DNA of 38,907 nt from Candidatus Zambryskibacteria bacterium RIFCSPHIGHO2_02_FULL_43_14. Lineage in GTDB: Bacteria; Patescibacteriota; Minisyncoccia; Phycocordibacterales; Zambryskibacteraceae. The position numbers and the translations under genes are program-made. Shown here one piece after another: positions 2,712 to 38,907 of the stretch (position 1 is the first letter of the stretch; every line of letters starts with the position of its first letter). A model generated the notes under the pieces. That model saw nothing but the letters and a program-made list of their open reading frames with translations, was not told where the DNA came from and did no database searches. The DNA is taken from positions 9,129-48,035 of the forward strand of contig MHVR01000014.1 in assembly GCA_001825315.1 (NCBI GenBank), given 5' to 3'.

Positions 2712-3944
2712 ATGTCTGAATCAGAACGCGACCACAAGAAAATAGGAAAGGAGCTGGAACTGTTTACCTTCTCGGATATTGTGGGTAAAGGCTTGCCACT
2801 CTGGCTTCCTAAAGGAGCTACGGTGCGCCGTGAGCTTGAGCGCTTTATCATCGACGAGGAAATACGTCGCGGCTATTTGCATGTAAGAACGCCGGACATT
2901 GCCAAACTTGATTTGTATAAAAAGTCTGGTCACTATCCTTATTACAAGAAGGATATGTATGCGCCCATAATTATAGACGATGAGGAATTCATGTTGCGGC
3001 CAATGACCTGCCCTCATCATTTTGAGCTTTATTTGACCAAACCCCGTTCCTACCGCGACCTACCGATGCGCATAGCGGAGCTAGCCCAGCTTTACCGCTA
3101 CGAGCAATCCGGAGAGCTTATGGGCCTGCAACGCGTACGCACTTTCTGCCTATCCGATGCTCACATTATCTGCGCGGACGAGAAACAGGCGGTAGAGGAA
3201 ATGGGCAAGGCTCTCGATCTAATTGAATACGTCAACAAAATTTTCAATCTTGAATATGGCAAGGATTACCGTTATCGGTTATCACTCGGCGACAGAAACA
3301 ATACCGAAAAGTATTATCAGGATGATGCCGGCTGGGATAAGGCCGAGAGCTTGCTTCGTGATCTGATGAAAACAAGAGGAGTTGATTTTGAGGAAGCTAA
3401 GAATGAAGCCGCTTTCTACGGGCCGAAAGTCGATGTCCAGATGAAAAACGTGAACAGCAAGGAGGATACGGCTTTTACCGTCCAGTACGACCTCTCTTCT
3501 CCGCAGCGCTTTGAGCTAGATTACGTAGGAGAAGACGGCAAATCGCATCGCGCTTTCGTGGTACACCGTTCTTCTATCGGTGCCATCGAGCGTATCATGG
3601 CCTTTTTGATAGAAAAATATGCTGGCGCCTTCCCTCTCTGGCTTGCACCGGTGCAGGTTAAAGTCCTGCCAATCGGCGAAGCGCATTTTCTATACGCCAC
3701 GGAGATTTTTGACAAACTTAAAGCCGAAAATATCAGAGTAGAACTCGACGTATCAGACGAAACTCTCGGTAAGAAAATTAGAAACGCAAAGACAGAGAAA
3801 ATTCCTTACGCGCTTGTTATAGGTGACAAAGAAGTTTCAGAAAAGAAAGTGACTATCGAGAGTCGTGATAATGGAAATCTTGGAACATCTTCCGTAGAAA
3901 ACTTAGTATTGAAACTTAGGAAAGAAATAAAGGATAGGGAATAA
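2712..3944 (+). CDS. thrS: Threonyl-tRNA synthetase, short form without TGS and editing domains
   Basis: Charges tRNA-Thr. The 410-residue protein begins directly at the catalytic domain (DHKKIGKELELF, residues 7-18), where full-length bacterial enzymes (about 640 residues) already have N-terminal TGS and editing domains. The three expected zinc ligands are visible: Cys100 in MTCPHH, His151 in SDAHIIC and His285 in VVHRSS. Motif 2 (LYRYEQSGELMGLQRVRTF, 128-146) and motif 3 (SIGAIERIM) are intact, and an anticodon-binding domain fills residues 310-410. Without the editing domain, proofreading of Ser-tRNA-Thr must be absent or done in trans. A TAGGAT box (2700-2705) sits 6 nt before ATG. The start is supported by the immediate onset of conserved sequence. 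Confidence 0.95.
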   Translation: MSESERDHKKIGKELELFTFSDIVGKGLPLWLPKGATVRRELERFIIDEEIRRGYLHVRTPDIAKLDLYKKSGHYPYYKKDMYAPIIIDDEEFMLRPMTCPHHFELYLTKPRSYRDLPMRIAELAQLYRYEQSGELMGLQRVRTFCLSDAHIICADEKQAVEEMGKALDLIEYVNKIFNLEYGKDYRYRLSLGDRNNTEKYYQDDAGWDKAESLLRDLMKTRGVDFEEAKNEAAFYGPKVDVQMKNVNSKEDTAFTVQYDLSSPQRFELDYVGEDGKSHRAFVVHRSSIGAIERIMAFLIEKYAGAFPLWLAPVQVKVLPIGEAHFLYATEIFDKLKAENIRVELDVSDETLGKKIRNAKTEKIPYALVIGDKEVSEKKVTIESRDNGNLGTSSVENLVLKLRKEIKDRE

Positions 3945-23400: not shown

Positions 23401-24079
23401 TGTCAAGGGTCACCCTTGACATATAATAGAGGGATGAAGAATAGAGACTTCAAGCAATTTGCAAGAGATTCGATACAACATGTATACAACCGCGGAGATA
23501 ATCGAGAAAATATTTTCCGCGACGAAGAAGATTATCGGGCATTTATTTATCGTCTTGGATTAGGACTTGGATTTGAAGCTGATGAACTTAATAAACATCC
23601 CCTATCTTCCATATCTAAATCCCGCATTAGAATCACAAAAACAAATAAAGATAATTTCCGCTTACATGCCTTTAGTTTGATTCCTAATCACTTCCATTTA
23701 TTGATTGAACAATGTACTGAATTGCCTATCTCAAGCCTTATCCTAAAAGTCTGCACAAGTTATGCCATGTTTATAAATAAGAAATATAAAAGAGTTGGAC
23801 ATATTTTCCAAGATCAATATAAGTCCGTCTTAATCAAATCGCATCCGCAATTAATGTGGATACCTGGATATATTCATATGAATTCAGTAGAAGCCGGAAT
23901 TGTGAAGCATCCGGCAGATTATAAATGGAGCAGTTACAACGATTATGTCTCCGATAGAGGTCTACCTATTACTCACACTAAATTTCTTTTGGAAACTTTC
24001 GAGGGAAAGAAGGGCTTTGAAAAGACGACTCTTGACGCTCTTAAAGATATGTCAAGGGTGTCAAGGGTCACCCTTGACA
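23401..24079. mobile_element. RAYT module 2 bounded by identical palindromes
   Basis: The same 21-bp palindrome, TGTCAAGGGT and ACCCTTGACA around a single C, stands at 23401-23421 and at 24059-24079, with an extra half copy at 24050-24059. A Y1 transposase gene lies between. The right palindrome is inside the transposase reading frame. This is a RAYT/REP module with a REP sequence different from module 1. Confidence 0.8.
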
Positions 24080-24099
24080 TGTGGGGTTTTCACTCATAG
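23434..24099 (+). CDS. REP-associated Y1/HUH transposase (RAYT), copy 2
   Basis: A 221-residue Y1 transposase. The HUH motif is NHFHLL (His86, His88); the likely nucleophile is Tyr110 in [12 protein letters not shown], followed by [24 protein letters not shown] and [10 protein letters not shown], all typical of the family. It is clearly diverged from copy 1. The start at 23434 (MKNRDF) lies 6 nt after a perfect TATAAT (23422-23427); a TTG at 23416 within the palindrome is unlikely. The last codons (SRVSRVTLD) are encoded by the right palindrome, and the stop overlaps the gyrA 3' end by 6 bp. Confidence 0.85.
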
Positions 24100-36592: not shown

Positions 36593-36868
36593 TTATTCCA
36601 ATGTTCTGCAGAACTTAAGAATATCTTTACCACGCTTAGTTAGAGCATGACGCACTGAACTACCATCACTCCGCTTCATCACAATACCAGCAATAGTGAG
36701 TTTACGCAGATGTTCAGATGTGGTTCGGAAATCAATATAAACGTGTTCAGCAATGTCAAAGACTGATAGTTCGGACTGTTTATCAAGAAGGTCAACAATC
36801 TGAATTCTTCTATGACTAGCAATCCCTTTCAATATTGTTTCAAGCTCTCTGTATCTTTTCTTATCCAT
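36593..36868 (-). CDS. ArsR-like winged-helix regulator
   Basis: A 91-residue protein with the ArsR winged-helix order: IASHRRIQIVDLL, SVFDIAEHVYIDFRTTSEHLRKL (recognition helix) and IVMKRSDGSSVRHALT (wing). There is no obvious metal-binding cysteine pair. The start at 36868 (MDKKRYREL) is preferred because the upstream ATG at 36877 overlaps the TATAAT -10 box. Palindromes containing TTCTGCAGAA lie at both ends of the gene, suggesting self-regulation. Confidence 0.82.
   Translation of the reverse strand: MDKKRYRELETILKGIASHRRIQIVDLLDKQSELSVFDIAEHVYIDFRTTSEHLRKLTIAGIVMKRSDGSSVRHALTKRGKDILKFCRTLE
36603..36614. promoter_or_regulatory. Operator-like palindrome in the 3' end of the ArsR gene
   Basis: GTTCTGCAGAAC, a perfect 12-bp palindrome within the last codons. 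It shares the 10-bp core TTCTGCAGAA with the promoter-side palindrome at 36887-36898. Confidence 0.5.
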
Positions 36869-36875
36869 CACAATC

Positions 36876-36898
36876 ATTATACCTTAATTCTGCAGAAT
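36876..36898 (-). promoter_or_regulatory. Promoter and operator of the ArsR-like gene
   Basis: A consensus TATAAT (36876-36881) sits 7 nt before the preferred ATG, so the transcript is nearly leaderless. The palindrome ATTCTGCAGAAT (36887-36898) lies where the promoter spacer should be, a good place for a repressor. Confidence 0.6.
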
Positions 36899-36910
36899 AT
36901 TGGTATAGAC

Positions 36911-36949: not shown

Positions 36950-37021
36950 GGCCCTATCGTCTATCGGTTAGGACACAAGCTTTTCAAGCTTGGAAGCCGG
37001 GTTCGACTCCCGGTAGGGTCA
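36950..37021 (+). tRNA. tRNA-Glu (TTC)
   Basis: A 72-nt cloverleaf: acceptor GGCCCTA pairs with TAGGGTC (one G-T pair), anticodon loop TTTTCAA with anticodon TTC, T-loop GTTCGACTC. CCA is not encoded. The recombinase element begins directly after its 3' end, so the tRNA is a candidate attachment site. Confidence 0.95.
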
Positions 37022-38547
37022 CAAATCGAAACTTCAGCAGGTGAGAGCAAAAAATCGGAGCGCGCCGAAGGCGCGCTGTATGGTGAAAGCATGGAATCCA
37101 TCTTGCGGACGCGGGCGAAATCGGAGGGCGGGCAAAATGAGATTGAGATAGTTTTGTCTTTCATCGCGGGGTTCGTTCCGAAGGAACGAAGAAAATCTCT
37201 CATCTCATGGAGATTTTCACTGGTTGCCAGAAACCCCGCGCGTTTTGAATCCAAAATCCATTTCCGCAGGGGTTCGACCCAATTCTTTCTCTCGGCTTGG
37301 ACAGATGAAGATTTGGCGTGAAGCGAAAGTTTTTGACGCATGAGAACGTCTTTTTTCACTAAATATATTTCACGCTCAATATCTTTGTTTAAGTAGAGGT
37401 CAACAAGTGCGTCAAGTTTCGCTTCAATTCCTTTCAAATCTTCCTTCATCTGTCCAAGACGACTCCCCGAAGCGTGGGATTCTTCGGACTGTAACACATC
37501 AACTTTTTGTAACATGTATTCTGCCCACGATTCGGGAAGGGACACTCCTTGAAGCTGTTCTCTGACTTGGGAGACGAGCAAATCTTCTCGTAAATATTTT
37601 TGCAAACAAACACCGTGCTTTTTCGAGCACCGATAGTACCGATATCGTCCGCCAGATTTTCCAGTCGCCCATTGTGCAGAAATCATACTGTCACATTCGG
37701 CGCATCGAAAAAGACCGGTGAAGGGAAAATTGTGAGATATTTTGGAATGTCTCGGATGTGCTCGTCTCTCCAAGACTTTCTGCACAGCTTCAAAGAGTGT
37801 CGGAGAAAGAATTGGCGCAAAGCTTCCGGGAAAATATTCACCATGATGATTGACGAAACCGAGATATGCACGATTGGTCAACATTCTTTTCACGGAAGCT
37901 TTGACAAGTGGCTTTCCGGACTTTTGCGTCACCCCATGGAGAGCCAGAAACTTCGACAGCGAAACGAGGGTATGTGAACTTTTTAGATATTCTTTAAAAG
38001 CACGAACAATAATTTTAGATTTAATCGGATCAGGTTCAATATTGCGCGTAGTGGGATTGTTCACATACCCGAATGGAGCGTTTGTCAGCCACTCTCCCCG
38101 TCGCAGTTTTTGGCGGAAACCTCGCTCAACATTTTGTTTTAAGTTGTCAGAATAATATTTACTTTGTCCGAAAGCCACTTGTAACATAAACAGCCCCTGC
38201 GGTGTTGGTTCAAACCAAAATGTCGGAAAACGCAAAGAAACTATTTTGGAAGTGTCTACGGCATATATGATGCGACCTCCGTCAATACTATTTCTGGCTA
38301 AACGGTCTGGATGCCACGAAAGAATACCTACACCGTCTAACTTTTCAATTTTGAGCATCATTTTGCCGAACACTTCTCGTCCAGGTTTTTTTGCGCTTTT
38401 CGACTCTTGAAATTCCTCCAGAATTTCAAGATTTTCTCTGCTCGCAAATTCACGAAGCTCAAACAGTTGTGATTCAATAGACATGACTTGGTGGTCATCA
38501 TCTTCAGTAGACTTGCGAGCGTAGAGAAAATATTTTGGTTTTAACAT
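36961..38547 (-). CDS. Large serine recombinase
   Basis: Site-specific recombinase acting through a serine nucleophile. The frame can start at 38571 but MLKPKYFLYARKSTED at 38547 fits better. Numbered from 38571: catalytic domain with Ser21 in YARKSTED and arginines in HPDRLARN (90-93); recombinase domain about 165-270 (APFGYVNN); zinc ribbon 285-340 with cysteines in LFRCAECDS and YYRCSKKHGVC; coiled coil about 370-420. The last 60 or so residues are read through an inverted repeat and then antisense to tRNA-Glu (GSRTRLPSLKSLCPNR), so they probably are not an evolved domain. The inverted repeats on both sides of the gene suggest an integrase or invertase. Confidence 0.88.
   Translation of the reverse strand: MLKPKYFLYARKSTEDDDHQVMSIESQLFELREFASRENLEILEEFQESKSAKKPGREVFGKMMLKIEKLDGVGILSWHPDRLARNSIDGGRIIYAVDTSKIVSLRFPTFWFEPTPQGLFMLQVAFGQSKYYSDNLKQNVERGFRQKLRRGEWLTNAPFGYVNNPTTRNIEPDPIKSKIIVRAFKEYLKSSHTLVSLSKFLALHGVTQKSGKPLVKASVKRMLTNRAYLGFVNHHGEYFPGSFAPILSPTLFEAVQKVLERRAHPRHSKISHNFPFTGLFRCAECDSMISAQWATGKSGGRYRYYRCSKKHGVCLQKYLREDLLVSQVREQLQGVSLPESWAEYMLQKVDVLQSEESHASGSRLGQMKEDLKGIEAKLDALVDLYLNKDIEREIYLVKKDVLMRQKLSLHAKSSSVQAERKNWVEPLRKWILDSKRAGFLATSENLHEMRDFLRSFGTNPAMKDKTISISFCPPSDFARVRKMDSMLSPYSAPSARSDFLLSPAEVSICDPTGSRTRLPSLKSLCPNR
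37059..37145 (+). repeat. Inverted repeat A, next to tRNA-Glu
   Basis: Starts with a perfect hairpin AGCGCGCC / GGCGCGCT (37059-37077), then a 56-base block (37080-37135) that matches the reverse complement of 38604-38659 at 46 of 56 positions by my count, and ends near AATGAGATT. It lies inside the 3' end of the recombinase frame. Confidence 0.8.
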
Positions 38548-38586
38548 ATATATGTTTTTGGATTCAAACAAAGCTAAACTATTAAA

Positions 38587-38679
38587 ATCTCATTTCTGCA
38601 TCCTTGCCCGCCCTCCAAATTCGCCCGAACCCACAAGGCGGATTCCATTCTCTCACCATTTTCCGCGCCGACGGCGCGG
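38587..38679 (-). repeat. Inverted repeat B, upstream of the recombinase
   Basis: Read on the minus strand it has the same order as repeat A: hairpin CCGCGCC / GGCGCGG (38663-38679), the matching 56-base block (38604-38659) and AATGAGATT. It is 8-9 nt longer than A near the last motif. Confidence 0.8.
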
Positions 38680-38907
38680 GGCAGGTTGGGGCTTTCAGAA
38701 CCCGAAGTCTCTAATTGCGGACTAATCCTATCCTTTGCTCTAACTTTTTTCCAAAATGTAAGTGGTGACGTGACAATGAATTCCGTCACGCCGTAGCGTC
38801 CACTCCACCACACTGTCGGGTACGACAGTGTGTCTCCGTTCCCGCTCCGTCGTCCGCCCTCGTCCCACCGCTTCCCATGCATGGATTTGTTTTGCGCGGG
38901 AGTTTCT
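38680..38907. other. Non-coding GC-rich region with hairpins at window end
   Basis: No convincing gene is seen from the recombinase start to the window end. A 102-residue minus-strand frame (38574-38882) is mostly translation of repeat B and low-complexity GC-rich sequence. The region holds the hairpin described at 38809 and a weaker one, CGTGAC / GTCACG near 38769-38790. The far end of any recombinase element probably lies beyond the window. Confidence 0.5.
38809..38832. repeat. Perfect 10-bp hairpin
   Basis: CACACTGTCG and CGACAGTGTG pair around GGTA. No T-run follows, so it is not an intrinsic terminator; it could be a recombination or protein-binding site. Confidence 0.6.

Follow-up and report, generated by a model that had tools for sequence, protein, structure and literature searches.

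A gene for a serine recombinase that lies between two inverted repeats, one of which touches a tRNA gene, raises the question of what the enzyme moves. The locus is located close to the end of the window, i.e., the whole stretch of 38,907 nucleotides analysed here from the genome of Candidatus Zambryskibacteria bacterium RIFCSPHIGHO2_02_FULL_43_14. The initial annotation, made from the sequence of the window, offered three answers: an invertible switch, the end of an integrated element, or a family of repeats moved by the enzyme. The comparison with relatives makes it very probable that the window contains part of a small mobile element that integrates into the chromosomes of Patescibacteria and is composed of two mirror-repeat modules; the part in the window is the one next to the tRNA.

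The recombinase gene and its surroundings

The recombinase is encoded on the minus strand (36961–38571), with a TTG start and an in-frame ATG at 38547. Its frame is intact (536 aa, zero internal stops). The protein contains PF00239, PF07508 and PF13408, all over the curated Pfam cut-offs, in the order Resolvase, Recombinase, zinc ribbon. The nearest PDB chains by sequence are 3guv (E 5e-6) and YokA, 9dxh (E 1e-5). The last codons fall within the antisense strand of the tRNA-Glu (UUC) gene (36950–37022, plus strand; ARAGORN, Rfam), so the overlap originally described is real. Comparison with empty sites identifies this tRNA gene as the integration target, with its T arm and 3' end as the B' half of the attachment site.

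The two similar inverted blocks of the initial annotation are also present, including the 56-base segment and both GC hairpins, and they are longer than was noted. A repeat search of the window returned two inverted pairs, 37022–37135 with 38604–38717 (114 nt, 70%) and 37135–37154 with 38576–38595 (85%). Both pairs are merged by local alignment into approximately 37022–37161 versus 38570–38717, with 68% identity over 149 columns (E ~2e-16). These arms of ~140–149 bp are referred to as P arms. The right P arm (37022–37161) is joined to the 3' end of tRNA-Glu, where one repeat had been placed from the start, and encodes the C-terminus of the recombinase. The left P arm (38570–38717) abuts the start of the recombinase gene and is an inverted copy of its own C-terminal coding region, the match covering residues 472–518. 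It is followed by the start of a further arm, the near P' (38718–38760 for this first part, plus strand), which opens a cargo module and carries a conserved motif at 38725–38744. The cargo begins past the end of the window, after a 19-N gap, with a helix-turn-helix gene leading.

The window's own genome (G000; 23 contigs, 618 kb, with the window on C14) was searched for extra copies of the 56-base block. There is one full second copy, namely the left arm, and the next match is a 28-nt hairpin on contig C16, located at another element end. In this genome, the copies were thus found only beside the recombinase, apart from that fragment. The idea of a repeat family moved by the enzyme comes close: the repeats are the attachment-site arms of the element itself rather than a dispersed family.

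Other features of the window can be mentioned here. A domain search revealed a gene for an ArsR-type regulator at 36593–36907. Palindromic repeats that contain TTCTGCAGAA lie on both sides of it (36594–36623 and 36878–36907), and these palindromes are perhaps the gene's own operators. Two ORFs (1956–2624 and 23416–24099) presumably belong to the REP-associated transposase genes, which they resemble.

Relatives and the layout of the element

A scan of a contig collection covered 80 loci of 305 confirmed relatives. Their contigs belong mostly to Patescibacteria groups or lack a group assignment, and the 3' end of the gene lies at a tRNA in 60 of the 80 loci. A typical family member was also found on a contig titled Deltaproteobacteria (L063), which is perhaps a mis-binned Patescibacteria contig. 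Together with loci from further genomes, and after the removal of duplicates, 132 distinct recombinase loci were obtained, the window's own copy being excluded. Inverted P arms are present in 107 of them, and in 64 of the 68 loci with at least 400 bp upstream and at least 300 bp downstream; the 25 loci in which no P arms were called are mostly short-flank ones. The P arms have a median length of 131 bp and a median identity of 98% (103 loci with arms of at least 70 bp). They also accompany recombinases that are only 30–45% identical and occur in single-contig genomes. By a loose criterion, which accepted any tRNA starting between -150 and +350 relative to the end of the gene match, a tRNA was located on the 3' side of the gene in 104 of the 132 loci and on the 5' side in one (L018). 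By a strict measure, P overlaps the 3' end of an ARAGORN tRNA by 3–11 nt in 72 of 76 loci, a set that omits L016 and loci with less than 40 bp outside the left arm. Within the class, 113 of 285 genomes carry the recombinase at E <= 1e-60, and the count is 107 of 250 when only the more complete genomes are considered; these are recombinase counts, with the arms confirmed in part only. Among viral contigs, seven pattern matches included zero relatives. All matches in phage records (244 with a match; 23–28% for the ten listed) and in plasmid records (53 with a match) were below 60% identity.

The conserved sequence does not end with the left P arm. In most loci with enough flank, it continues into a core and the conserved second arm P', and P' recurs in an inverted orientation further out in 28 of the 46 loci that have P arms and at least 4 kb upstream. 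In the other 18 long-flank loci, the far P' was not found within the available flank. In 30 measured elements (a minus-strand row of L081 was dropped as a fragment, and far arms shorter than 55 bp were not counted), P' is 61–297 bp long with a median identity of 99%, and the P' arms are spaced 0.8–6.7 kb apart with variable cargo inside. Whole elements span 2.6–9.0 kb (28 with both ends). Their layout is tRNA, P, recombinase, P, then P', cargo, P', then the chromosome; L014 and L015 do not fit it cleanly. In L015, an apparent P|tRNA junction beside the cargo was discarded, as it adjoins an NN scaffold gap. In L151, L141 and L153, elements have accumulated at a single tRNA or lie back to back, and in such tandem accretion, the newer element sits between the tRNA and the P arm of the older one.

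Empty sites in relatives are known for three loci, which bears out the proposal of an integrated element end. For the G216 element, the empty site that was predicted gives gap-free alignments with G340 (126 nt, 83%) and G345 (128 nt, 82%). The far flank of the G110 element adjoins tRNA-Ser(cga) in G283, G460 and G402. Two further flanks were rejected: that of the G040 element matched only paralogues without a nearby tRNA, and that of the G245 element is itself the P arm of an older element, which indicates tandem accretion rather than an empty site. The core 4-mer at the tRNA border is identical to that at the far border in 18 of 23 elements (one far border being N), compared with a mean of 2.1 and a maximum of 8 in shuffled controls, and 84 of 92 letters match in the core versus 29 of 92 at control positions. 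This far-border test replaced a comparison of the tRNA border with the P|P' border inside the element (61 of 72). The latter was dropped, since the same alignment had also defined the repeat end, which made the comparison partly circular. The elements thus end at tRNA 3' ends, have empty sites and carry a direct core repeat, as integrative elements do.

Two-module layout, core direct repeat, empty sites, variable cargo and many tRNA targets can all be read from the aligned sequences. From these we infer a circular intermediate, the recombinase as the catalyst, a zinc domain that reads a T-loop motif, and a control of directionality. The recombinase would insert the circular form of the element into the 3' end of a tRNA gene. 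Each P|P' border would be a complete attP-like site, and given the integrated layout, the circle should hold two inverted copies of it. Integration would split one attP between the tRNA (P side) and the chromosome (P' side), while the other would stay intact.

The cargo is diverse. A small helix-turn-helix gene often comes next after the near P'. A Pfam scan of 30 proteins, out of 113 listed cargo ORFs and three of C16, left four without a Pfam family. Restriction-modification systems of type II (L135, L184, L146 and the window genome's own C16) and type I (L189) were found, as well as an SNF2 helicase with DUF2779 (L182), an aromatic amino acid lyase (L056), a sodium:solute symporter (L070), an ABC transporter (L078), a glycosyltransferase (L088), a dihydroorotate dehydrogenase (L173), a DHDPS-like protein (L174), PurD (L177), a class I tRNA synthetase (L147) and a nitroreductase (L152). 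Patescibacteria exchange genes by carriers that are little known, and the elements examined bear defence systems and single metabolic genes. According to a term search, recombinase, integrase, plasmid and tRNA are all absent as words from the main text of an article on gene exchange in Patescibacteria (PMC12455944).

The window's own copy and the orientation of the module

In the window's genome, P adjoins tRNA-Glu on contig C14, whereas contig C16 contains a P' border at a gene that we take to be tsaD from the resemblance of its protein. In G302 and G296, tsaD directly follows tRNA-Glu, which is the empty site for the window's element. The far end of this element is probably the P'|tsaD border on C16. 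The near P' on C14 is unlike the far P' on C16, and the two ends possibly belong to two elements in tandem. For this reason, and in view of P arms with no more than 68% identity, it would go too far to claim a single intact element for this genome. The family may be mobile while the copy in the window has decayed into an old, immobile remnant. This is a serious possibility, although we lean against it: the divergence of its P arms from the family median and the mismatch of its P' arms fit decay, but the frame is intact with all three domains, and a gene that is 91% identical occupies a different tRNA in the congener G296. That gene resides in tRNA-Ser(cga), a site that is free in the window's genome; the reverse holds at tRNA-Glu, which is occupied in the window's genome and empty in G296.

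Two other observations concern the same genome. Positions 3720–5856 of C16 (L092) form a second element end at tsaD, with a helix-turn-helix gene, an MvaI/BcnI-type endonuclease and a methyltransferase. Additionally, contig C1 opens (1–408; L091) with the N-terminal part of another family recombinase, which is 65% identical.

The suggestion of an invertible switch finds support in a single contig pair. L016 and L018 share 4,952 identical flank bases, tRNA-Glu included, and contain a recombinase module of 1.7 kb that is 99.8% identical but oppositely oriented at the same tRNA-Glu. The pair suggests that the other orientation exists, at low coverage. According to the contig records, k-mer coverage is ~1.6 for L016 and ~1.4 for L018. 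In addition, the L018 contig stops precisely at the arm, and a misassembly is thus possible. If P × P recombination flipped the recombinase gene in place, arms as similar as those of the family would be expected, yet of the 105 loci that have a tRNA at one end of the gene or the other, only one shows the other orientation. Recombination between P|tRNA and P|P' would also be unexpected for a serine integrase. Such a switch is therefore unlikely, and so, to the same degree, is its supposed effect, in which the 5' end of the flipped gene would face the tRNA promoter and expression, and hence excision, would be turned on.

The integrative element with two mirror-repeat modules, in turn, requires an extra rule. 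Two equal attP copies predict both orientations, yet the ratio is 104:1 across the 132 loci, and the cargo is divergent from the recombinase in 27 of 30 elements. Either the circle keeps one of its attP copies masked, or elements in the other orientation disappear because read-through from the tRNA would turn on the enzyme. A more far-reaching proposal, which we regard as doubtful, is that the inverted duplication of attP is functional and makes the element a two-state device. A flipped module, as in L018, would come under read-through from the tRNA promoter and lead to excision, and the usual antisense arrangement would be silent. The circle would integrate by the convergent attP only, which would fix the orientation of gene and cargo, and the reading of the T-loop would open almost any tRNA gene to it. 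If this were true, the element would be a general gene-cassette carrier of Patescibacteria.

An IS-like transposon, with the P arms as terminal inverted repeats moved by a serine transposase, is very improbable: the P-recombinase-P unit is compact (~1.7 kb) and several family copies occur per genome, but the unit continues past the left P arm into the conserved core, P' arm and cargo, the other end is a second P', and the targets are tRNA 3' ends rather than random sites. The mobile unit is thus not bounded by the inverted repeats that flank the enzyme gene, and the P' arms and empty sites largely refute this reading. An assembly artefact, in which misjoined contigs created the mirrored repeats, has next to no chance and is refuted for the family, since, despite contigs that stop within 700 bp of the gene on its upstream side in 42 of the 80 scanned loci and an N gap just outside the arm on the window's contig, the layout recurs in most of the 132 distinct loci with arms diverging from locus to locus and in the single-contig genomes G255 and G284, and near-identical inverted arms would themselves break assemblies in this way. 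Given such breaks, it can be expected that metagenome-assembled genomes will under-report the cargo.

Target recognition and comparison with known systems

The target of the element appears to be encoded in what tRNA genes have in common. The tRNA T-loop appears as CGAAC when the strand is read from the core, and P' carries a similar motif. Of the 76 loci examined, 61 have both motifs, and in 59 of these, GAAC in P' is displaced outward relative to its position in the tRNA, by 6 bp in 41 loci and by 5 bp in 18; in the remaining two, the offset is 19 bp. For the Glu cases, the distances between the last shared core base and the end of the motif are 24 and 18 nt. According to PMC3783163, the motif bound by the zinc domain of serine integrases is placed at half-site positions 16–24 in attP and is shifted by 5 bp toward the centre in attB, which would give positions 11–19. 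The short shared core and the motif lying about 5 bp further out on the element side correspond to the attP/attB relationship of serine integrases. By analogy with this shift, the zinc domain probably reads the T-loop motif (GTTCGA/TCGAAC), and the enzyme would recognize the T-loop together with the 3' end, both of which are common to nearly all tRNAs. On a tree of 96 recombinases with 13 tRNA types, the type changes 32 times (minimum possible, 12; shuffled, 61.8), which is consistent with the reading of shared features. If a serine integrase site is indeed built on the T-loop, it represents a targeting principle that was not found described, and the enzyme might serve as a tool for many tRNA landing sites.

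Several known systems share individual properties with this element. Large serine integrases (A118/LI, phiC31, Bxb1 and YokA of SPbeta) have the same order of Resolvase, Recombinase and zinc ribbon, the same motif shift of ~5 bp between attP and attB, and a short identical core; here, however, insertion is at the 3' ends of tRNA genes, with many isotypes among them, and attP is duplicated and inverted within the element. Integrons are defined by the tyrosine integrase IntI and attC sites, whereas the enzyme of the window is a serine recombinase. Genomic islands borne by tRNA genes use tyrosine integrases and share the insertion at the tRNA 3' end, the tandem accretion and the cargo. In the present elements, the recombinase is unrelated to theirs, the core comprises a few nucleotides, and the tRNA remains intact without a supplied 3' end. 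SCC elements are likewise moved by large serine recombinases (Ccr), carry cargo and have inverted repeats at their ends, but their target is rlmH, the terminal repeats are short, and they are not known to have a separate mirror-repeat cargo module. The yeast 2-micron circle, a free plasmid with the tyrosine recombinase FLP, resembles the putative circle in that two unique regions are parted by inverted repeats with a recombination site; here, the recombinase is of the serine type, and the circle would follow from the integrated layout. Streptococcal rumA-type ICEs are conjugative, have a single serine integrase and target a protein gene, and the 3' end of their integrase gene is similarly exchanged with the target gene; two-module mirror repeats are not described in the sections of that article covered here (PMC4701971). 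Searches of the open-licence PMC literature, judged by titles and the beginnings of abstracts, yielded no description of the element. By its domains, the enzyme is an ordinary large serine recombinase, and it is the combination of a two-module mirror-repeat layout with T-loop targeting that seems to be new.
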